Assembly (NCBI GenBank): GCA_035629175.1
Contig: DASPIL010000070.1
Location: 1 to 64,000, forward strand
Length of the DNA: 64,000 bases
From: Verrucomicrobiia bacterium
Lineage (GTDB): Bacteria; Verrucomicrobiota; Verrucomicrobiia; Limisphaerales; DASXHY01
Direction: 5' to 3'
Part shown: positions 5,065 to 48,058 of the stretch, piece by piece
How the letters are laid out: the number at the start of each line of letters is the position of its first letter
Numbering within the stretch: the stretch's first letter is position 1
Translations under genes and position numbers: made by a program
Notes under the pieces: generated by a model
What the model saw: the letters and a program-made list of their open reading frames with translations, nothing else
The model's database searches: none
What the model was told of the DNA's origin: nothing

Positions 5065-5390
5065 ATCATCTCTCGGTCGTAAATAGTTGAAACAAATGCG
5101 TTGCTGCCGGGTTAACCCTGCAGAATGAAAACCGTTGTGCGGATTAAAACGAATCCGGCGTTCAAGCGGACGCAGCCTCTGCCGTGGTGGCACGATGGCC
5201 AGATCGTGTCGCAGAATTTTGGCGGGTCGAAGGCGGCTCCCGTCGTATCCATTTTTACTCCCGGAACGGCGCGCAACCCTGCGCGCGGGGTTCGGGCGCT
5301 TCCGTTTTCCTGCCTCTATTTTTATGCAATGGCCCTGTCATCAATGTTGTTCCCCGTCTAGGCTCGGTCCGTGGCGCTCCGCCCCTGAAC
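5065..5390. other. Intergenic stretch without a convincing gene
   Basis: This lies between the tRNA-Gln promoter and the ECF sigma gene. Short open frames exist here (one starts at ATG 5125, another continues upstream of the sigma gene), but they have no recognisable domain, signal sequence or ribosome-binding site. Presumably the stretch holds the promoter of the sigma operon. I could not assign a -35/-10 pair with confidence. Confidence 0.4.
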
Positions 5391-5945
5391 ATGGACGACA
5401 CGCAATCATTCGAGGCGTTCATGCTTGATCACCAGAACATGGTGTTTGGCACCGCAGTGCGCCTGCTCGCGAATCGATCCGAGGCAGAAGACATCGCACA
5501 GGATGTTTTCCTCAAGGCATTCCATCATTTCGAAAACCTGCGGGACAATCCATCGGCAGGCGGTTGGCTGCGGACTGTCGTCACAAACCTTTGCCTGAAC
5601 CACCTCACGCGTTATCGCTCACGCTGGAACTTGTTCACGGAATGGCGATCCAGCGATGGCGAGGAGCTTGGACCTGCCGCTGAGATGACGGCACCGAGCG
5701 ATCCGCTTTCTGAAATCGCAGCCGCAGAACAGAACGAATTACTCGAGCAAGCGTTGCAGAAACTTCCCGATTCGCAGCGGGTGCCCATTGTTCTCTTCCA
5801 TCTGGAGAATCATTCGTATGAGCAAATAGCCGCCGAGCTCGGGATTTCTCTTGGCAAGGTGAAAACCGACATATTCCGGGGGCGCGAAGCGCTGCGGAAG
5901 GTGCTGCAAAGAAAAACCGGGTTTTCGGAAATCGTCCGCACATGA
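5391..5945 (+). CDS. ECF-family RNA polymerase sigma factor
   Basis: A 184-aa sigma-70 family protein with the two expected regions. Region 2 (about residues 6-75) contains SEAEDIAQDVFLKAFHHF and the WL-TV--NLCLNHLTR helix. Region 4 (about 115-170) contains LPDSQRVPIVLFHLENHSYEQIA followed by the helix-turn-helix LGISLGKVKTDIFRGREALR. ATG 5391 is chosen because region 2 starts directly after it; upstream in-frame codons look non-coding. Its stop overlaps the next start as ATGA, so it is coupled to the membrane protein that is probably its anti-sigma factor. The inducing signal is unknown, though envelope stress would fit the neighbours. Confidence 0.92.
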   Translation: MDDTQSFEAFMLDHQNMVFGTAVRLLANRSEAEDIAQDVFLKAFHHFENLRDNPSAGGWLRTVVTNLCLNHLTRYRSRWNLFTEWRSSDGEELGPAAEMTAPSDPLSEIAAAEQNELLEQALQKLPDSQRVPIVLFHLENHSYEQIAAELGISLGKVKTDIFRGREALRKVLQRKTGFSEIVRT

Positions 5946-6430
5946 AGCATTTCTCGGAACAGGATCTGGAATCGCAGGTGGATCGCGCTCTCAAGGCGCT
6001 TCCCGAAATTCCAGCGCCCCAATCCCTCGCGCGGTCAGTGCTTGCAAGAGCAAAATCCCAGAGTGCCGCGCCCTGGTACCAGCGTCCATGGCACTCATGG
6101 CCTGTCCGGTTGCGCGCTGTGTCGTTCGGCATCATGCTCGCCGCCTTTCCTGCGCTGTATTTTGGGATAATTCAGTTGATCAATCATTCCTTTGCGGGGG
6201 TTTTTGCAGAACGAGCGCGCGATTCGCTGAATGCAGTGGCCATCCTTTGGAACGTAGCCACGGCGATAGCGCAGGCCGGCTTCGCTGTCATTGCGAATCT
6301 CGGACCGCTTTTCTTTGTCTCGGCATTCCTGATTGCGGCAGTTGCATATGCTGCCTGCATCGGCATCGGAACCCTGGCCGTCAAACTTGCGCTCACCCAT
6401 CGATCCTCCAATCCCTTTTATGAAAATTAA
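5942..6430 (+). CDS. Putative membrane-anchored anti-sigma factor
   Basis: A 162-aa protein with an acidic/amphipathic N-terminal half (SEQDLESQVDRALKALPEIP) followed by hydrophobic segments at roughly residues 60-80, 95-118 and 122-148. A short cytoplasmic helical domain followed by membrane helices, encoded directly after an ECF sigma gene with an ATGA overlap, is the usual arrangement for a sigma/anti-sigma pair. I see no zinc-finger HxxxCxxC motif, so it would be a non-ZAS type. The function is inferred from position. It overlaps the next gene's start by 11 bases. Confidence 0.6.
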   Translation: MKHFSEQDLESQVDRALKALPEIPAPQSLARSVLARAKSQSAAPWYQRPWHSWPVRLRAVSFGIMLAAFPALYFGIIQLINHSFAGVFAERARDSLNAVAILWNVATAIAQAGFAVIANLGPLFFVSAFLIAAVAYAACIGIGTLAVKLALTHRSSNPFYEN

Positions 6431-7994
6431 GACGTTCGCCTTTATCAGCTTCGCGCTGCTGACCCTATCCACCTTGCCGTTGGTCGCGCAGGAAGATTCG
6501 CTGGAGTCTCCGCAAGTGCTGGCGCCGGAAATTGCAACCAATTCGGCGGCCGAGGCTGAGTCGGAATCCTCGGAAACGGCCGCGACGCCGAACCTTCGTC
6601 GCGGACCAGTCCTTGCCTTCGGCAAGACCGCAGAACTCGCTGCCGATCAAACCGCGGAGGCAGTGATCGCAATCGCTGGTACAGCCCGTGCCCATGGCCG
6701 CGTGCGTGAGGCGGTTGTTGCCATCATGGGTGATGCCGAGGCGAATAATCGCGTGGGCGATTCTGTTGTCGCGATCGCCGGCAATGTTCGGGTGAACGGC
6801 GAAACCCGGGAAGCCGTGGCGGTGCTTGGCAGCGTGATGGTGGGATCTAATGCCGTGATCCGCGGAGACGTTGTGTCTATCGGAGGGACTGTGAAGCTTG
6901 CCGAAGGAGCGAGGGTGCACGGCCAGATTCACGAGATGACCTTTGACGTACCGGGCTTGCCCCGTATTGAGGAGTTGTCGCTCTGGGTTCGCGAATGCGT
7001 ATTCAAGCTGCGGCCGCTGGCGCCGCAGGTGCGATGGGTATGGATCGTTGTGGGTGCGTTTATCGGTCTTTACTTCCTTATCGCGGTTTTATTCCCCGGC
7101 CCGATCGAACTCTGCCGTGCTGAAATCGCGCAGCGTCCAGCCACCACGTTTGTAGTCGGATTGTTCTCAAAGATTGCGATTCCGATCATCTTGCTGGTGC
7201 TTGCCGCAACCGGCATTGGACTGCTCGTCGTGCCTTTTGTTTTTGCAGCTGGAGTTTTTGCAGCCCTTGTTGGCAAGGTTGCCCTGTTGCAATTCGTCGG
7301 GGGCGCATTGACTCGCGCGTTCGGCCTGCAGGGACGGGCCGCCGAACTGCTGTCTCTCGCGATCGGATCGATCATCATGATCGTTCTTTACATGATCCCG
7401 GTGGTCGGTTTTCTCGCCTTTGCCGTTTTCGGAGTGTGGGCCTTGGGCGCAGTTGTAACGGCGGCGTTCACGCGAATCACACGGGAACGTCCCCCCCGCC
7501 CGCCACGTGGGAACCCCCCCACGTTTGGCGGTGGCGGTTCCGCAAACCCCCAGGTCGATCCAGCCGCTCCTCACCCTGCGGGAAGCGGAACGGGATTTGC
7601 GCCCACTTCCGGCCTTGTGGCATACCCACGCGCCGGGTTTTGGGAGCGCATGGGTTCAGGGTTTGTAGATCTTGCCTTGCTCAGCATTCCCTTCGCAATT
7701 CTGGGGCCTCTCGGATTGCTGGTCTTGCTCGCCTACTTCGCGGGCATGTGGACATGGAAAGGAACCACGATCGGCGGGCTCGTGCTGCAGCAACAGGTGG
7801 TTCGATACGACGGCAAACCGCTCAACTTCACGGTTGCGCTTGTCCGCGGGCTCGCCGCGTGCTTTTCGGCCTGCATGCTGTTTATCGGCTTCTTCTGGAT
7901 TGGTTGGAACCGGGAGAAACAGGCATGGCATGACCTTATCGCGGGAACCTATGTCGTCCGGCTCCCCCGAGCCATGCCGCTGGTTTGCCTATGA
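6420..7994 (+). CDS. Exported polymer-forming/RDD-domain membrane protein
   Basis: A 524-aa protein starting at MKIKTFAFISFALL (ATG 6420), with a signal peptide ending near LVAQ. Residues about 60-170 form short repeated beta units (AIAGTARAHGRVREAVVAIMG, GDSVVAIAGNVRVNG, GSNAVIRGDVVSIGGTVKL), a bactofilin-like beta-helix rhythm. Several transmembrane helices follow (about 215-360), then a Pro/Gly-rich linker. The C-terminal RDD domain (about 415-520) contains GFVDLALLSIPFAILGP, WKGTTIGGLVL and KQAWHDLIAGTYVV. It is co-transcribed with the sigma/anti-sigma pair. A role in envelope sensing is inference. It ends tail-to-tail with leuB, overlapping it by 6 bases. Confidence 0.75.
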   Translation: MKIKTFAFISFALLTLSTLPLVAQEDSLESPQVLAPEIATNSAAEAESESSETAATPNLRRGPVLAFGKTAELAADQTAEAVIAIAGTARAHGRVREAVVAIMGDAEANNRVGDSVVAIAGNVRVNGETREAVAVLGSVMVGSNAVIRGDVVSIGGTVKLAEGARVHGQIHEMTFDVPGLPRIEELSLWVRECVFKLRPLAPQVRWVWIVVGAFIGLYFLIAVLFPGPIELCRAEIAQRPATTFVVGLFSKIAIPIILLVLAATGIGLLVVPFVFAAGVFAALVGKVALLQFVGGALTRAFGLQGRAAELLSLAIGSIIMIVLYMIPVVGFLAFAVFGVWALGAVVTAAFTRITRERPPRPPRGNPPTFGGGGSANPQVDPAAPHPAGSGTGFAPTSGLVAYPRAGFWERMGSGFVDLALLSIPFAILGPLGLLVLLAYFAGMWTWKGTTIGGLVLQQQVVRYDGKPLNFTVALVRGLAACFSACMLFIGFFWIGWNREKQAWHDLIAGTYVVRLPRAMPLVCL

Positions 7995-38156: not shown

Positions 38157-40115
38157 TCATCGCGCGGCGGGACATTTGCGGAGTCCTGTGTCAATAGAGC
38201 AGATGTGTGTTGCGAGCCAATCGCCCACCAAGCTTTGAAGATCCAGCAGCATTGACGTGGTCGGCCCGTGTTCTTCGAAGTTCGCCTTCAACCTGGTGAA
38301 GGATTGCAGGAACTTGAGGTGTGCCGCTTTGTTCGCCGCGGAAGTCGGGCATCGGTGTGTGGACATCAATTCTTCTTCGTGCGCGAAGTGTGTTTGCACA
38401 TAGGCAGCGAGAAAATTCATCATTCGTCCGAGTTCGTCCTTGCCGGCGCCAGCAACGCACGCGCGGTGCAGTTCGTTAATCATCTTGATCAATTCCTGGT
38501 GCTGCTCATCGATGCTCTCAACGCCAGTGGTCATGCGGTCTTGTTCCCAGCGGATGAGATCGTCCGTGCTCCGGACCGACGCATTCCGCGGCGGCGAGGG
38601 AGATCGATGATGCATACCTGGTAAACGATGTTGTGCCGCCGGCCTGGGTTGAGCGGACGGTTCGGCGCGAAGATTTCCTGAAGTTTGACCGACCGCCTGT
38701 CCCAGGAGCTTCCGCAGGTCAGCTACGGAGTCATGCATCATTCTGGCCTGGGCATGCAACTGGTCGGCCGCACCGGCACTCTCTTCCGCGCTTGCTGCAT
38801 TGCGCTGCGTGACCTTGTCCATTTCGCCGACGGCCGCATTGATCTGGCTGATTCCCTGGGTCTGCTCCTTTGAAGCGCTGGATACTTCGGCCACAAGTTC
38901 ATCGACTTCGCGGATCTGGCTGACGATTCCGCTGAGTGCAGTGACGACCTTGCCAGAAATCGCGACTCCTTGCCCGGTCCGTGAAATGGCTCCTTCGATT
39001 TTGGACGACGTTTCCCTTGCGGCCTGGGCGCTCCGTTGCGCCAAATTGCGGACCTCGTCGGCGACGACAGCAAATCCCATCCCGGCTTCACCGGCGCGGG
39101 CAGCTTCCACGGCTGCATTCAGTGCGAGGATGTTCGTTTGGAAGGCGATCTCATCGATCGTTCTGATGATCTTGCTGATATCGTCACTGGACGTTTTAAT
39201 CGCTTCCATCGCGCTGGACATCGCCTGCATATCGGTAGCGCAGGTGTCGGCGCCAGAGCGCGTCGCGCGGGCCAGTTCACTGGCGTGGTGCGCGTTTTCC
39301 GCATTGCGGCGGGTCATAGAGGCTAGTTCCTCGAGGGAGGCGCTGGTTTCCTCGAGCGCTGCTGCCTGCTGGCTCGCACCCTCGGCGAGAGTCTGGCTGG
39401 ACGAGGAAACCTGCTGGGCTGCGTTCCCCGTCAACTCCGATCCTTGCGAGAGCGCCTCGACGATTCCATTCAACGGAGACGTAATCGAGCGAACAAAGAA
39501 AATTCCAAGCGTAATCATCGCGGCGGCCAGGCCAAGTGCGGCCAGCAAGATGGCCTGCGTCACGCGATTTCCTTTTAGTTGAACCGAGGCGAGGGAACGT
39601 TTCGACTCCTCCGATTGCTGTTCGATGAACGGTTCGAGTTCCTGCAGGAAGCGTTGAGCGGCGTTGTCAAAGTCGCTCATTTTCTGATTCCCCGCGGTCG
39701 TTCCATGCTGCACGTACGCCTCAGCCATGGAGCGCCCGGCCTGGTAATAGGCATCGAACGACGCTACCAAGGCATTCATCTTTTCGACTCCCGATGAATC
39801 GGCGCGTGCTGCGAGGAATTGTCTCATCTTCTCGCCGTTGGCGACGAACGCATCTCGGGACTCGGCTGCTTTCGTAAATCCGTCGTTCAAGCCATCCTGG
39901 CCCCGCGTGGCAGAAATATCCGTCAGCCATTGCTGCACCTGGACAGTGTTGAGCTGCATCTGCCGCAGAACGTCCGCGATCATCATCCTCTCATTCTGAA
40001 CCCGGGTGATGCGCTGCATGCTGGTGACTTGCAGAAGGTACGAAGCTGTCGCGCAGACGAGCAGGCCCGCGATTGGAATTCCGCACAAGACGAGGAGTTT
40101 GGTTTTTAGGTTCAT
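38157..40115 (-). CDS. Methyl-accepting chemotaxis protein with C-terminal hemerythrin domain
   Basis: A 652-aa receptor from ATG 40115. TM1 is about residues 8-28 and TM2 about 185-208, with a four-helix-type periplasmic domain between them. The cytoplasmic signalling hairpin contains [20 protein letters not shown] and [19 protein letters not shown]. After a Pro/Arg-rich linker, the last ~125 residues are a bacterial hemerythrin: [36 protein letters not shown] and [13 protein letters not shown]. Together they supply the usual five His plus Glu/Asp ligands of a di-iron oxygen-binding site. It should sense O2 or redox in the cytoplasm. It belongs to the minus-strand receptor operon. Confidence 0.93.
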
Positions 40116-40135
40116 AGTATTTCCCTGAGAGCGGT

Positions 40136-41437
40136 TTAGAAAATCAACGTGACGCGAAGGGTCGTGATCCATGCCTCGGCCCGCCCTTCACCCCCGCCGG
40201 GATTTACGATCCACTGCATGTCCGGCTGAAGAACGATGAAGGATGTCGCCTGGAAGCTGTAGAACCATTCGACGCAGGTTTCATTGCGATGGAGAGCGGC
40301 GTCGGCAGGACTCGTGATGGCCAGGCTGCAGTAGATTCCGGACGCGTCATCATCGCGGCAGGGAAGGAATCCGATCACCACCAAACCGCAGCCCACATGG
40401 TGTTCTATCGCACTGACATTTGCATCGGCGTATCCATACTGGGCAAACAGGCTGACTCCCTGCGGGTTGTCCGGCTCCTCGAGATTTTCCTTCCAAACCT
40501 GTTGTTCGGCTACTGCGTAGAAACCTGTCGCGCTGTTCTCAAAGCTGCCGTCGAAACGCTCGACCTGTGCGACCTCGTGCCACATGCCTCCTGCCACGCG
40601 CCCGGGACCCAGACGCCGCGCCCCCTCCCAGGCGACGCCGGCCTCGCCAAGCAGGTATGCGGTTTCGAAATTCAATGGCGAACGCGAGTCCAACGGCTCC
40701 GAATACACACCTGTCCCGACGTAAGTGCCGGCCGACGGATAGACGAAGACATTCGCGCTGAGTGCGGGACACGGGTAGGTTGGCAGACAACGCAACGTGG
40801 GGCTGTAACCCGCGCTCGAATGGATGAATTGCCCCGACGATTCAATATAGGCGAATTCGGTATTTGCATCCCCCTGCCCGAGCTTCACGCGAATCCGATC
40901 GTCAAGGAGCTTTTGTTCAAACCAAAGCTCACCGATTCGATCGAAGCATTCTGCGTCGATGTTGGAATACCCTTGAAGGTCTCCCACAAAGTTGGCGCCA
41001 TTCGGTCCATGGCGGAAAAAATATTGCGCAAAGAAAGTTGAGCCGGGAATCCCGAGAACAGGTTCCGGATCGAAGGTGAAATTCAGGTCAAGCAGCCCGC
41101 GCGCGACGCTGCGTTGGCGCAGGCCCCCCGCCAGCACGGAAGAGCCATCGATTATATATGATCCCGAAAACTCCACGCCCTTCTCGGCCAGCGACGTCCG
41201 AAAGCCTCCCCAGTTCCCGCTCGCGTATTCACCTTCATGCCATGGCACATCGCTTCGACTTTGCTCCCCCGCAGCGTCCCTGGCGGGCGCTTCGTCCTCT
41301 AAGAGCCTTCGTTCGCCCAGATGCACGCGACGCAATGCGAGGTCGTTCGTGCGGGTGGCTTCGATTTCCGCGGCGTTCGCGCAGCACAGAGGAAAAAGTC
41401 CCAAAAACAGCAGCAGGGCAGACAATGTGTTGTGCAT
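40136..41437 (-). CDS. OprB-family carbohydrate-selective porin
   Basis: A 433-aa outer-membrane protein with a signal peptide ([17 protein letters not shown]). OprB landmarks are [27 protein letters not shown] at the start of the barrel, [68 protein letters not shown] and a final [10 protein letters not shown] strand. It would admit mono- or oligosaccharides. It lies between two chemoreceptor genes (gaps of 20 and 35 bases), so it is very probably co-transcribed with them. Confidence 0.9.
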
Positions 41438-41472: not shown

Positions 41473-43089
41473 TTAAAAGGCGCCCTCCAGCGGGATTTCA
41501 ATTTGCTGTTTGCTGATTTCCTCGCCACCCGCCGCCGAACGACGCGTGCTGGAAGGTTCCGCTTTCCGCGGCGGGCCTGGCTTTGGAGAGTGAGTCAGAG
41601 CGTGTTTGGGAAGAGCGTTCTCTTTGCGCTGGGCGGGCGTCGCGTTCTCGCCCACCAAACGCAGCAATTCCGCAACTGCCTGTTTCATGGATTCAGCCTG
41701 GCTGTTCAATTGCTCTGCCGCGGAAGCGCTCTCTTCTGCATTCGCTGCCGTGTTCTGCGTGATCTTGTCCATGTGGCTCACTGCTGCATTCAATTGAGCG
41801 ACTCCCTGGCCCTGTTCGTTAGAAGCGCTCGCAACTGACGCCGCGAGTTCATCCAGCGTGCGGGAGCGGGACGCAATATCGGTGAGTGCCGATGAAATCG
41901 TTGCGTTCAACTCCACTCCCAATTTGGTCTTTTCGATTGAAGCCGCGATCCGGGCTCCTGTTTCCTTGGCGGCTGCCGCGCTGCGCTGCGCTAGAGCGCG
42001 CACTTCCTCGGCGACGACTGCGAATCCAGCGCCTGCCTCACCTGCGCGTGCTGATTCAACTGCTGCATTCAGAGCCAGGATGTTTGTCTGGAACGCGATC
42101 TCGTCGATGGTTTTGATGATCTTGCTGATATCATCGCCCGCAGTGCGGATGGCCGTCATCGCCTGATCCATCTGCTTCATGTTGGCGACGCCCTTCTCTG
42201 CGGCCGCGCGGGTCTGGCTTGAGATTGTTTTCGCCTGGCGCGCGTGATCGGCGTTGTGCCGCGTGGTGGAGGACATTTCTTCGAGCGATGCGCTGGTTTG
42301 CTCGAGTGAGGCGGCGTGTTCGCTGGCGCCTTCCGCAAGGGATTGGCTTTGCGCTGAAAGCTGGAACGCGGCTGCGCTGACCTGCTCTGCCTCGCTGTTC
42401 AACGCCTGGGCGACACGCTTCAAGGGAGTTGTCAGTTGAAGGTGAATGACAACGCCCGTGAGCGCCCCCAACGCTGCAATTAGAACGAGCGCGGTCCAGA
42501 CACTTGTCGAAGTATTGGATTTTTGCAGGTCCTCCTCGAACCGGGTCCATGCGGACTGCGCCGCTTTCAGCGCGTCCGTGGAAAACTTCATACTCATCAC
42601 GCCGCAAACCTGGCCTTGTTTCCAACCCTCGTGGCATTCGATGCAGGAGCGGTCGGAAGGAATCGAGCGATACATTTCGAAAGAGTTCTCCGTTCGCCGC
42701 TTGATCATCTGGGCCGATCCGATCAATGCTCCCTGCAGCTCCGCCGGAAGCGTCTGCTTCAGCCGGGAAGGATCCGAAGAGTAGGCTGCCTTGCCGTTTG
42801 CATCGAACAGCGACACCTCCTGCAATCCCTGGACGTTTCGCTGGGCAATGAGAATTTTATCAAACTTGTCCATCTCACCTTCTGCCATGGCATCGATGAG
42901 CGGCGCATAGGTTGCCTGTTGAAGTTTTTCAACCCAACTCCAGTGCTCTCCCTCTTCAGCCGAGCAGATCTCCGATGCGAAGCGCTTAACCTCGCTTCCG
43001 TTTCGCCAGTGCTGAAAAAGAGCCGATCCCAAATAGACCGACAGCAGTCCGGATAGCAGTGCCAGTGACAGTTTCGTCTGTATTTTCAT
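41473..43089 (-). CDS. Methyl-accepting chemotaxis protein with periplasmic haem-c (CXXCH) sensor domain
   Basis: A 538-aa receptor. TM1 is about residues 7-25 and TM2 about 197-217, with a Tll0287/DUF3365-like periplasmic domain between them. That domain contains the single haem-c motif CIECH (C149, C152, H153), with [16 protein letters not shown] before it and [14 protein letters not shown] after it. The cytoplasmic hairpin has [40 protein letters not shown]. The C-terminus ends IEIPLEGAF. Covalent haem would be attached in the periplasm, where it could sense redox state, NO or CO. Cytochrome c maturation genes are not in the window. Confidence 0.9.
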
Positions 43090-43127: not shown

Positions 43128-45221
43128 TTATCGCTTCTCCGCGCTATGCACTAAACTTGCTCTGCCTGGCCGATGGCCTTGAGCAGCGATTCGTTTTATC
43201 GACGCTTCGGGCCCAGATCCGGGGCTTGAGGCGACAGGCGTTGTGGATGCGGAATCATCGGCTCCAACCAACTCTCGAAGTTTGTCTACAGAGCGGGTCA
43301 TGCTTTCGGCCTGGGCGCGTAGTTCCTCAGCCGCGGCGGCGCTCTGTTCGGCACTTGCGGCATTGCCCTGCGTCACCCGGTCCATCTGGCTCACCGCGGC
43401 ATTAATCTGGGAAATTCCCTGGGTCTGCTCGCGAGAGGCGCCCGCAACTTCAGAGATCAGTTCGTCGACCTGATGAATCTGCGAAACGATCTCATTCAGC
43501 CGTGCGGCGACTTTGCCGCTGATTTCCACGCCTTCGCGTGTTCGGCTTAGAGATTCTTCGATTTTCGCAGTGGTTTCTTTGGCCGCCTGCGCGCTCCGCT
43601 GTGCCAGGTTCCTAACCTCATCAGCAACCACGGCGAATCCCATTCCCGCTTCACCGGCACGGGCAGCTTCCACCGCTGCGTTCAACGCAAGGATGTTTGT
43701 CTGGAAGGCAATCTCATCAATCGTTTTGATGATCTTTGCAGTTTCGTCGCTCGACAATTTGATGGCATCCATCGCCACGGTCATTGCGTTCATGTCGAGT
43801 GCGCCCTTGTCGGCGCCGGAACGGGTGTGTTTCGCGAGTTCGCTCGCCTTTTGCGCATTCTGCGCGTTCTGTTTCGTGAGGGAGGACATTTCCTCCAGCG
43901 AAGCGCTGGTCTCCTCGAGGGCTGCGGCCTGTTCACCCGCGCCTTCTGCAAGAGATTGTCCCGCTGCCGCAATCTGGCCCGATGCGGTATGGGTTTGCTC
44001 GGAACCGTCCTTGACCCAGGCCACGATTTGGCGGAGAGGGCGGACGATTCCGCGGGTGAGTAACAGCCCGATTGCTGTTGCAAAGAGAATTCCAAGACCA
44101 GCAACGGCCATCACCCACGTGAGAACGGATTGCTGCGCGCGACGCATCTGCGCGAGCACATCTGCAAAGTCATCCTCATAGGCTCCCGCGCCAATGACCC
44201 AGCCCCAAGGCGCAAAGCTTGTCACAGCCGCGAACTTCGTCCTCGCTGTCGGATCGTTTGGATTTTTCCAGGGATATGTCTCTACCTCGGACGATCCATT
44301 CCTGGTTTTCAAACCCTTTTCGATGATCGACTGGATGAACAACCGGCCGTTGGCATCTTTTGCTTCCCAGAGGTTCTCACCGTCGCGCTTGCCTCCTTGC
44401 GAAACAATGTATCTGCCTTTCTGGTCGCCTTGAGTGCCTACAACAAAAACGTAACCGCTTTTTCCGACCTGGATTTGCGTAATCGCCTCATGCAATTCGC
44501 GGTTGATCTGCTCCAGACCGATTCCGACATACAGCATTCCGATGACTTGCGTCTTTGCGGTATTCCAAATCGGTTCATAAATTGCGGCGTGCCATTCCTT
44601 GACCACGAACGCGCGGCCGCGGTACGTATCGCCTGCGAGAACAGCGGCGACCACTGCGTTCGGAGTGCCATCGGGATTGCGAGCGGGGATGAATGTGCCG
44701 ACCGCCCGTGTGCCGTCCTCCTTGAGGACGCTCGTGGAAACCCGGAGCATGTCGCCGGCTTCATTGATGCGCTGGAAAATTGTGCAATAGTCGCGGGTCA
44801 GGCGCCGCGTATCATCAACGACAACCGCGGTTTCGTTGGTGGTCGTGATCTGGCCGAGCCACTTGCTTCCTGCGCGCATCCTGGGAAGCGCCAGCGCGAC
44901 CTTCTCTTTTGTGAATTGATTCACGGCTTCCCACGGAATCGTTTCCTCCGACAGATTCAGGCCTCCCGCTTCCTGGACGAGCTGTTGAGCGACTCCGAGG
45001 CTGTGGGTCAATCGCTTTTGGTTGCGCGATTCGGTGCTGGCGCAAAGCCAATAAACAGTGTGAACGATTTTGGAGCCTTCGCTCACCGCCTGGTCGCGGA
45101 TTGTTCCGCGGATCTGTCTTTCGAGCTTTTGTTGTTGCACGAACACCGCCGCCAGGACAGCGATCGTTGTCACCACCGTCAGCCCGACCATTGGAAGAAC
45201 TATCTTTCCGGTTAGTTTCAT
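43128..45221 (-). CDS. Methyl-accepting chemotaxis protein with Cache sensor
   Basis: A 697-aa receptor. TM1 is about residues 10-27. A large periplasmic double/single-Cache region (about 40-345) contains [83 protein letters not shown] and [20 protein letters not shown]2 follows, then a HAMP-like segment and the signalling hairpin with [20 protein letters not shown]. Cache domains of this kind typically bind small carboxylates or amino acids directly. The ligand is unknown. Gaps to its operon neighbours are 15 and 38 bases. Confidence 0.93.
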
Positions 45222-45236
45222 TGGGTTTTACGGGAG

Positions 45237-47237
45237 TTAAAAATCGCGGAAATCGCCTTCCAGCGGTATTTCCTGCGTTCGATCTTTTTTCCCTGCGAGC
45301 TGCAGGGATTCATCTCGCGCCTTCGGGGCCGTGCGGCTTATTGGTTGCAAGGGAATCGACGTGGTGGACGGCCGAACTGCCTTCGGCTGAACGGGCGCGG
45401 CAGGTCCCCGGGATTCAACTGACTGGCCGACGAGGTTCAGCAGTTCACTCACGGAAGCTTTCATGGTCTCCGCCTGCGCATTCAATTCTTCGGCGGCGGC
45501 GGCACATTCCTCTGCGCTTGCGGCGTTGTTCTGCGTGACCTTGTCCATCTGGCCCACGGCAGTGTTGATCTGGGAGATCCCCTGCGACTGCTCGCGCGAG
45601 GCTCCTGCAACTTCAGCGATCAATTCATCCACCTGCCGCACCTTGGCTGTGATCTCGTCAAGGGCAGAGGCGACGCGCGCGCTGATGTCCACACCCTGTG
45701 CGGCGCGAGTCAGCGAGCCCTCAATTTTCGCGGAGGTTTCTTTCGCGGCCTGCGCGCTGCGCTGAGCGAGATTTCTAACTTCATCAGCGACGACGGCGAA
45801 GCCCATCCCCGCCTCCCCAGCTCGCGCGGCCTCAACCGCAGCGTTCAGCGCAAGAATGTTGGTTTGGAATGCAATCTCATCAATTGTCTTGATGATCTTT
45901 GCGGTTTCGTCGCTGGAAAGCTTGATGGCATCCATGGCCGCAGTCATGGCCTTCATTTCATGAGAACCCTTGTCGGCCGCCGAGCGTGTTTGTTTGGCAA
46001 GCTCCGTCGCTTTCTGGGCTGACCCGGCATTGTGCCGGATCATTGATGACATTTCTTCCAGCGAGGCGCTTGTCTCCTCGATGGATGCCGCCTGCTCGCT
46101 CGATCCTTCGGCAAGCCCCTGGCTGGCGGAGGAAACTTCCCGCGCTGCGCCTGCGGTATGATCTGAGCCGAGCGACAATGCGTTGGCGACATGGCGGATG
46201 GGCCTCGTAATAGAGCGCGTCACGAGCAGCCCCAGAACCGCGGCAAGCACCACGCCAATCAAAACCGAGGCGAGGCAGAACGCCTTTTGGAACGCAGCAT
46301 CTCTCCTGCCGGCAGCGACTTCTTCAAGCGCGCCTCTGCGGTGCGACTGCACGAGCCGATCGAGTATGGCAAGCGCGGCATCATGGGTTTCTACAACCGG
46401 CCCAAGAACATCTTGGTGGATTCGGTTCTGCAGGTCGCCGGCTTCCTTTACGGACGTCCGGACAATCTCGAAATGCTTGAAGACGTCCTGCATCGCAGCC
46501 GTCAGCTCGGTGTCAAAACTCGCCTGTGCCTCGGGAGTTTTGTTCTCGGCGGTGAGGCGTTTTATCTTGGCGACGGCTTCGTGGAACGCCTGGTGTGGCA
46601 CAGCGAGGGCGCGGACTTGAGACGCGAGGGTTTGGTTCCCGGTCGTAAAGGATGTGAGCCACTTGCCACAGTTGCACGCTGAAGAGTCGGTTCCGCCTTC
46701 AAAGGTCGAATCGGACGAACGGAGCAATTCCAGAACCTTCCTTGCAACTATGTGATGATCCTTCGTGCATTGTTCGATCGTATAGGCGAGTTGAGCCGCG
46801 TCCGGGATTCCTGCGGCATCGTATTGCTTGCACAACTCGATGATCTTGGTGTTCTCCGTGCGCCAGGCATCCCATGCAGGAGTGAACTGCTTCCAGATTG
46901 CGGTCTCCTCAGGCGTTTGGGGCAGGGCTTCGAAAGCCTTCCAGGCTGCCTGGTAGCTCTCACGGGATTTGACAAGGTTCTCATACTGCTGTTTGCGCAT
47001 TTCGTCCGGCAGACCGGGAATGGCAAGAGTGCGGACTAATCCCTTGATCGTTTCGCTTTCGGATTTGATGATCATCAGGTTATCGACTGTCGGAAGGCTT
47101 TCGACTCCGAGCCGCTGCACGATTCGCGTGCTCTGGATGGCGCCGTAATACCCCACGATTCCGACGGCAACGGTGATAATTGCAACGGCAAGGAAGGACA
47201 GAAGAAGCCGGGTCCCGAGCTTCAGGTTTTTAAACAT
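45237..47237 (-). CDS. Methyl-accepting chemotaxis protein with periplasmic CZB-like zinc-binding region
   Basis: A 666-aa receptor from ATG 47237. TM1 is about residues 12-32 and TM2 about 328-350. In the periplasmic part, [16 protein letters not shown] is followed by [12 protein letters not shown] and [15 protein letters not shown]. This matches the H...C-x-x-GKW...H-x3-H pattern of CZB zinc-binding domains (H161/H162, C190, H215, H219). The signalling hairpin has [20 protein letters not shown]. The C-terminus ends [15 protein letters not shown] domains are normally cytoplasmic, so a periplasmic position is unusual. It is the first receptor after cheW, with a 37-base gap. Confidence 0.9.
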
Positions 47238-47274
47238 AGCAGTGGCAATGAAAGGGTTGAGTTTGTTCTGAAAA

Positions 47275-47805
47275 TTACAGAGAAGGCGGGTTCGTCTGGG
47301 TCGAAATTCGTGCGGCGGAGCAACGTTCGGCGCCCGTAATGACGCGATCAATGTCGAGCAGCACCTTCACAGCGCCTTTCACCTTCGCCATGCCTACGAT
47401 GTATTCTGCGTGGATCTCCGATCCGAAGTCCGGGGTTTCCTCGATATCGGCGGGGGGAATGTTTGTGACTTCTTCGACACCATCAACAATCAGTCCCATC
47501 TGGGTGTTCTTGCCGTCGGGCAGCGTCACTTGCACCACCACGATGCAGGTCAGATCGGTTTCGCTGGCGTGGGGGAATCCAAAACGCAGGCGCAGATCCA
47601 TCACGGGGATGATTTTCCCGCGCAGGTTGATGACCCCGCGGACATAGGCCGGCATCTGGGGGACATCCGTGATGTTTGTGAGGCGGATGATCTCACGCAC
47701 CTTCAGCACGGCGATTCCGTAGGATTCACCATGCAACGTAAAGGTCAGGTATTTTCCTGCCAGTTTGCGGACATCGCTCGACAATTCTTTTTGGGCTTCA
47801 GCCAT
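47275..47805 (-). CDS. cheW: Chemotaxis coupling protein CheW
   Basis: A 176-aa adaptor that links CheA to receptors. Taken from ATG 47805 ([20 protein letters not shown]). The SH3-like fold is visible as [71 protein letters not shown] and [13 protein letters not shown]. It is the first gene of the minus-strand operon and the only stand-alone cheW; CheA carries the second copy of the domain. Confidence 0.94.
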
Positions 47806-48058
47806 AATCGGACTTTCTTCTGTTCTCAATCAGGGGACACCGCGTGAAGGTTCATCGGGCGGTCGAGCGCGGGCACTCACACCGAAATTGTCTTAAACCG
47901 ACCGCTTATTGCCAGCCGGTCGGATGGGTGAGAATTGGGAGGGAGGGAACTTCTTCTCTTCTATTGCTGTGTAAAAGGGGGAACCGCAATTTCGGGGCAA
48001 TAAATTGCAAGCGTCGCGCAGCGCCGTTGACCGGAATCCGTATGCTACACGGCAATAT

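Follow-up and report, generated by a model that had tools for sequence, protein, structure and literature searches.

A predicted periplasmic c-type heme chemoreceptor in an Opitutae genome and its hydrogenase-linked relatives

INTRODUCTION

Chemoreceptors (methyl-accepting chemotaxis proteins [MCPs]) with a c-type heme in the periplasm are already known, and the closest described ones are GSU0935 and GSU0582 from Geobacter sulfurreducens. Met60 of GSU0935 serves as the distal heme ligand; its binding is strong when the heme is reduced, and this redox-linked binding is the published switch (PMC8396549). A 2026 preprint groups Tll0287, GSU0582, and GSU0935 as c-heme single-Cache domains (sCache_heme, the new name for Tll0287-like/DUF3365) and reports the CxxCH motif in 99% of the members (PMC12889525).

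Here, we analyze a receptor gene in a 64,000-nucleotide stretch of DNA from a Verrucomicrobiia bacterium (contig DASPIL010000070.1; hereafter, the window). An earlier note had described the product as a chemoreceptor with a periplasmic c-type heme motif. It is a further member of this known kind of receptor, and it led to a subfamily in which many relatives are encoded next to a [NiFe]-hydrogenase.

RESULTS

Layout and fold of the sensor

The gene and the features of its product are as follows:

41473..43089, minus strand: c-heme chemoreceptor gene, 538 aa, ATG start (open reading frame and MCPsignal domain)
43015..43071, minus strand: first membrane helix, about aa 7-25 (hydropathy)
42505..43014, minus strand: periplasmic single-Cache sensor domain, aa 26-195 (AlphaFold2 model, Foldseek matches, hydropathy)
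42886..42888, minus strand: Met68, aligned with the distal heme ligand Met60 of GSU0935 (putative ligand)
42871..42873, minus strand: Met73, invariant across the aligned sensors, candidate alternative ligand (alignment)
42631..42645, minus strand: CIECH heme attachment motif, aa 149-153 (translation; conserved in 59/59 sensors)
42439..42501, minus strand: second membrane helix, about aa 197-217 (hydropathy)
41758..42222, minus strand: MCP signaling domain, aa 290-444 (Pfam)

The position of CIECH between two membrane helices, as originally proposed, is borne out by this map. The MCP signaling domain is the sole Pfam match in the protein; no HAMP domain (PF00672) was detected in the Pfam search at E = 10, and HAMP is present in 3 of 19 relatives.

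AlphaFold2 modeling from a 19-row alignment predicted (mean pLDDT of 88) a sensor fold that has two helices, of which the N-terminal one is long, and a five-stranded sheet, with the motif helix (147-152) located between strands 136-144 and 161-170. A Foldseek search of the PDB with this model retrieved WalK, GSU0935 (3b42, E = 3.0e-5), CitA, GSU0582 (3b47, E = 2.4e-4), and DctB; the large rmsd to 3b42 and 3b47 fits the domain-swapped crystal form of both (PMC8396549). The same two structures surfaced in sequence searches with CxxCH in register, 3b42 ranking first in the single-sequence search (E = 0.36) and 3b47 and 3b42 ranking second and third in the profile search (E = 0.11 and 0.21), matches that are suggestive and not significant alone. 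The Pfam model PF11845 (Tll0287/DUF3365) does not match the window protein even at E = 10. Weak matches (best E-value, 0.0036) were obtained for 11 of 19 family members, with one relative (L086) reaching 21.5 bits against the cut-off of 24.1. A search of the host genome with this model found nothing, a negative that carries no weight alone, as no control genome gave a match either. We place the window domain in the c-heme single-Cache structural class, beyond the reach of PF11845. Thus, the designation as a Tll0287/DUF3365-like sensor in the earlier note stands with respect to the fold class and the CxxCH motif but not as a Pfam call.

Conservation of the heme attachment motif

When 146 related genomes were searched with the whole domain, 18 homologs, each of which has CxxCH, turned up in 10 genomes other than the window's own. 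Further relatives were collected by scanning genome contigs with a seed pattern, [SA][LM]x[RE]GEM[EDA][KR]F (the GEMxKF motif), derived from a 6-row alignment. Because this seed is a different stretch of the domain, the scan is independent of the heme motif; CxxCH is present in all 45 scanned sensor genes that reach it, and only the truncated L070 is without it. In the joint alignment, CxxCH is retained in 59 of 59 sensors, and five columns are identical throughout, namely, G71, M73, C149, C152, and H153; G71 and M73 belong to the scan pattern and are also invariant in the 18 homologs found without it. Two further cysteines of the window protein, Cys42 and Cys162, were considered as a family-wide ligand or disulfide and rejected, Cys being found at these positions in 1 and 8 of the 59 sensors, respectively.

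Several receptors depart from the common architecture. Two from Magnetococcales (L065, 10001-12139, and L069, 10001-12115) contain a second CxxCH motif, at a distance of about 51 residues from the first, and may represent a two-heme variant. In Omnitrophota, the same c-heme sensor is part of a hybrid histidine kinase, not an MCP, in L052 (9803-12565), for which the kinase domains were read; L059 (9803-12610) contains a frame of similar length. Neither of these two loci has an adjacent hydrogenase.

Maturation, motility, and respiration genes of the host genome

A cytochrome c maturation system, whose absence the earlier note would have taken as a refutation, was found in the host genome (96% complete) and is of the System II type (ResB, CcsA), so that this objection falls away. 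Contig C11 encodes one ResB and two Cytochrom_C_asm proteins, of which one is a 665-aa CcsA with a WWD-type motif (QSWGRFWGWDPKEN), near ResB, and the other, smaller one, preceding a hemA-like gene, may be HemX by inspection. Taken together, the invariance of the motif, the match of the fold to GSU0935 and GSU0582, and the maturation genes indicate that the receptor very probably carries a periplasmic c-type heme, predicted to be covalently attached, as initially suggested.

The host genome also encodes flagellins, a cbb3 oxidase, NrfA, and a quinol NO reductase (L075; E = 9e-262 for its top PDB match). No [NiFe]-hydrogenase large subunit was found in this genome by a search that did give matches in control genomes; a role of the window receptor itself in H2 sensing was therefore rejected.

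The chemoreceptor gene cluster

The receptor gene is flanked on the same strand by three other MCP genes, a cheW gene, and a porin gene, separated by short gaps or small overlaps:

47275..47829, minus strand: CheW, at the head of the receptor cluster (PF01584, E = 1.7e-38)
45237..47351, minus strand: MCP, four-helix-bundle sensor and weak CZB match (Pfam)
43128..45221, minus strand: MCP, Cache_3-Cache_2 sensor, directly upstream of the c-heme MCP (PF17201, E = 1e-84)
40136..41437, minus strand: OprB-type porin, between the c-heme and hemerythrin receptors (PF04966, E = 2.8e-40)
38157..40172, minus strand: MCP with a C-terminal hemerythrin domain (PF00015; PF01814, E = 3.6e-11)

On the plus strand, at 30-36.5 kb, the window encodes CheB, CheR, and CheA, along with CheD- and CheY-like open reading frames named by inspection only. 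A similar set of genes, encoding a Cache_3-Cache_2 MCP, CheW, OprB, and a four-helix-bundle/CZB MCP, lies beside the c-heme MCP gene in an Opitutaceae metagenome-assembled genome (L027). The presence of an OprB-type porin gene among chemoreceptor genes is common to the window (40136-41437) and this locus (5185-6420). The CZB (zinc-binding) match in the MCP encoded at 45237-47351 is weak (aa 217-263; 27.1 bits against a cut-off of 29.4) and precedes the second membrane helix, so that the domain would be periplasmic; in the neighbor MCP of L027, CZB is C-terminal.

The hemerythrin receptor that had been assigned to the same operon is real and belongs to the same cluster and strand, but the operon itself is deduced from strand and short gaps only. 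The proposal that the two receptors complement each other gains support from other genomes, in which the c-heme sensor and the hemerythrin domain are fused in one MCP (L017, 212-2356; and L030, 1-1968, whose protein is also that of L008) or encoded side by side, the MCP gene of L041 overlapping at its end with a separate hemerythrin open reading frame (6465-6911).

Heme ligands and phylogeny

His153 of the CxxCH motif is the putative proximal ligand. Residue numbering in the single-sequence and profile alignments makes Met68 of the window protein the counterpart of Met60 in GSU0935. Position 68 is occupied by Met in 12, Leu in 46, and Ile in 1 of the 59 sensors; the invariant Met73 has a counterpart in GSU0582 and none in GSU0935. 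From these alignments, Met68 is most likely the distal ligand, with Met73 as the alternative; given that position 68 is Leu in most of the subfamily and Met73 is invariant, the ligand may be Met73 or water.

In an IQ-TREE phylogeny of the 59 sensors, the window protein belongs to a clade of eight (support 100/98), all of which have Met68 and none an adjacent hydrogenase gene. The window genome belongs to an Opitutae clade in which hydrogenase is lacking and Met68 is retained. All 37 hydrogenase-linked sensors fall on the other side of the midpoint split, which is weakly supported, and 36 of these have Leu68. The association between Met68 and hydrogenase linkage (Fisher's test, P = 3.8e-5) was computed over related rows and thus reflects a difference between clades, not a large number of separate events. 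Two additional relatives (L086 and L087) likewise have Met68 and no hydrogenase next door. In L086 (5076-18640; genome G420, one contig), the c-heme MCP gene has the ResB and CcsA genes on one side and, upstream, a run of genes encoding multiheme c/cytochrome b561 proteins and an NapC/NrfH-like cytochrome, a gene context that suggests a link to periplasmic electron transfer. In L043, the receptor gene follows fliD. The subfamily is rare in Verrucomicrobiota, being present in 4 of 388 genomes, the window's own included.

Hydrogenase-linked relatives

In 37 of the 57 sensors with a readable gene context, the receptor gene is directly preceded, mostly within 100 bp, by a gene for a [NiFe]-hydrogenase small subunit. 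Because the scan was seeded with a pattern, this count is no unbiased estimate of frequency; the whole-domain search within the same order gave 3 linked homologs among the 16 whose context was readable. Linkage was assigned in every row from sequence motifs, one of the 37 belonging to a tandem pair of receptors in L032, of which it is the second, and was confirmed by Pfam or NCBIfam in all six loci tested (L034, L042, L058, L068, L048, and L041). The large subunit gene usually precedes that of the small subunit, giving an operon of large subunit, small subunit, and c-heme MCP, as in L034 (507-4793), L042 (7544-11551), and L058 (651-5152), and likewise in L031, L032, L041, L048, and about 25 further loci. 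Hosts of these relatives include Verrucomicrobiota, Thermodesulfobacteriota, Myxococcota, Omnitrophota, Sumerlaeota, Planctomycetota, Calditrichota, Riflebacteria, Magnetococcales, and one gammaproteobacterium. The hydrogenase genes are absent upstream of the window receptor, the neighbors of which are MCP, CheW, and OprB genes.

The linked small subunits carry a twin-arginine signal, and the cysteines and histidines expected to ligate Fe-S clusters are invariant in 36 aligned sequences; the best PDB match of the L034 protein is the small subunit of the NiFeSe hydrogenase from D. vulgaris (2wpn). No hydrophobic C-terminal anchor was found in the twelve small subunits inspected. The 33 distinct large subunits all end exactly at DPCxxC..H, without a C-terminal extension. 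A large subunit that lacks the extension is the usual form in sensory hydrogenases, HupV and HoxC among them.

Taken together, these gene arrangements suggest that the hydrogenase-linked relatives are a candidate class of undescribed, hydrogenase-coupled H2-taxis receptors; no description of an H2-taxis receptor or an MCP-linked [NiFe]-hydrogenase was found in the open-licence papers searched. We consider it likely that, in many phyla, this subfamily functions in H2 taxis, with an anchor-less, Tat-exported [NiFe]-hydrogenase reducing heme c with H2-derived electrons that travel along its Fe-S chain; the Opitutae branch would have lost, or never had, the hydrogenase and would keep Met68, with the heme acting as a free redox or gas sensor. 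These operons are a more surprising result than the window receptor itself. Since H2 gradients shape anaerobic communities, a class of H2-taxis receptors, if real, would also matter more. One carrier of the operon is a named culture, Desulfosarcina cetonica JCM 12296 (L063), which makes H2 taxis directly testable.

DISCUSSION

A proposed mechanism and its alternatives

The analysis shows a gene, an invariant motif, a fold match, maturation genes in the host genome, and a che cluster, from which a mechanism can be sketched. The ResB/CcsA synthase would attach one c-type heme through Cys149 and Cys152 in the periplasmic single-Cache domain, with His153 as the proximal and Met68 as the most likely distal ligand. 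A change in the redox state of the heme would make or break the distal bond and thereby shift the helix leading into the second membrane helix, and the signal would pass, without HAMP, to the MCP hairpin and then to CheW and CheA. The receptor would thus report the redox state at the cell surface, and the neighboring hemerythrin receptor would report oxygen inside the cell. Heme occupancy, the ligands, the stimulus, and the direction of the response are predicted elements of this scheme.

On balance, we lean toward such a periplasmic redox sensor, with one c-type heme attached by System II and ligated by His153 and probably Met68, functioning in energy or redox taxis. Sensing of redox, NO, or CO had been proposed from the start, and all three hold up as possible roles. 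Besides switching with redox, the Geobacter domains bind both NO and CO (PMC8396549). The chief rival is NO, which would bind to the heme in the periplasm and steer the cell, the redox state only setting the ability to bind; given the dual behavior of the Geobacter domains, the two readings are not exclusive. A c-heme Cache protein of P. azotoformans that is linked to signaling releases NO slowly and forms no stable oxygen complex (PMC12889525), and the quinol NO reductase and NrfA of the window genome also fit this possibility. Nevertheless, Met at the position of GSU0935 Met60 throughout the window's clade points to a redox-closed heme, and genes of NO metabolism are absent from the window cluster; we regard NO sensing as less likely than redox sensing.

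It appears distinctly improbable that the heme of the window receptor is reduced by a periplasmic redox protein, such as a cytochrome or dehydrogenase, instead of responding to a diffusible signal, although this is the mode that we propose for the hydrogenase-linked relatives. The small subunit genes that precede 37 of 57 receptors and the multiheme cytochrome cluster of L086 would fit such a partner-driven sensor, but the window genome lacks a [NiFe]-hydrogenase large subunit, and there are no redox enzyme genes beside the window receptor. The difference between Met68 and Leu68 allows mutational separation of redox-switched from partner-driven sensing. A haem-free Cache chemoreceptor for a small molecule, with CxxCH as a chance or relic motif, has the failure of PF11845 to call the protein as the sole point in its favor and seems highly improbable against a motif that arises, in any CxxCH form, in 0.04% of trials after shuffling of the whole protein, with both cysteines and the histidine invariant in all 59 sensors and a fold that matches c-heme domains. 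We thus retain the redox sensor as the preferred reading for the window receptor.

Comparison with known systems

The window receptor widens c-heme chemoreception to Opitutae and to proteins missed by the Pfam model. With GSU0935 and GSU0582, it has in common two membrane helices, a periplasmic Cache/PAS-like domain, one CxxCH in the same place, and MCP output, but the identity is only 16-18% over the fold match, and the Geobacter receptors have a HAMP domain (PMC8396549), whereas none was detected in the window receptor. The Tll0287-like/DUF3365 proteins share the fold class, the CxxCH element between strands, and the fusion to a signaling output; in the window subfamily, no conserved residue corresponds to the Cys that serves Tll0287 as distal ligand. 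DcrA from Desulfovibrio vulgaris, which is likened here by description, is also a chemoreceptor with a periplasmic c-type heme and a proposed oxygen or redox sensor (PMC8396549) and carries a cytoplasmic PAS domain besides.

For the hydrogenase-linked relatives, the point of reference is the HydDB class table, which lists a putative chemotactic class for [FeFe]-hydrogenases (C2) and none that is MCP-linked for [NiFe]-hydrogenases (PMC5037454). The sensory [NiFe] group 2b (histidine kinase-linked) and [FeFe] group C2, as given there, combine a hydrogenase with a signaling protein, as the linked relatives do; compared with these listed groups, the linked relatives are distinct in tying a predicted Tat-exported, periplasmic [NiFe] enzyme to a c-heme MCP.
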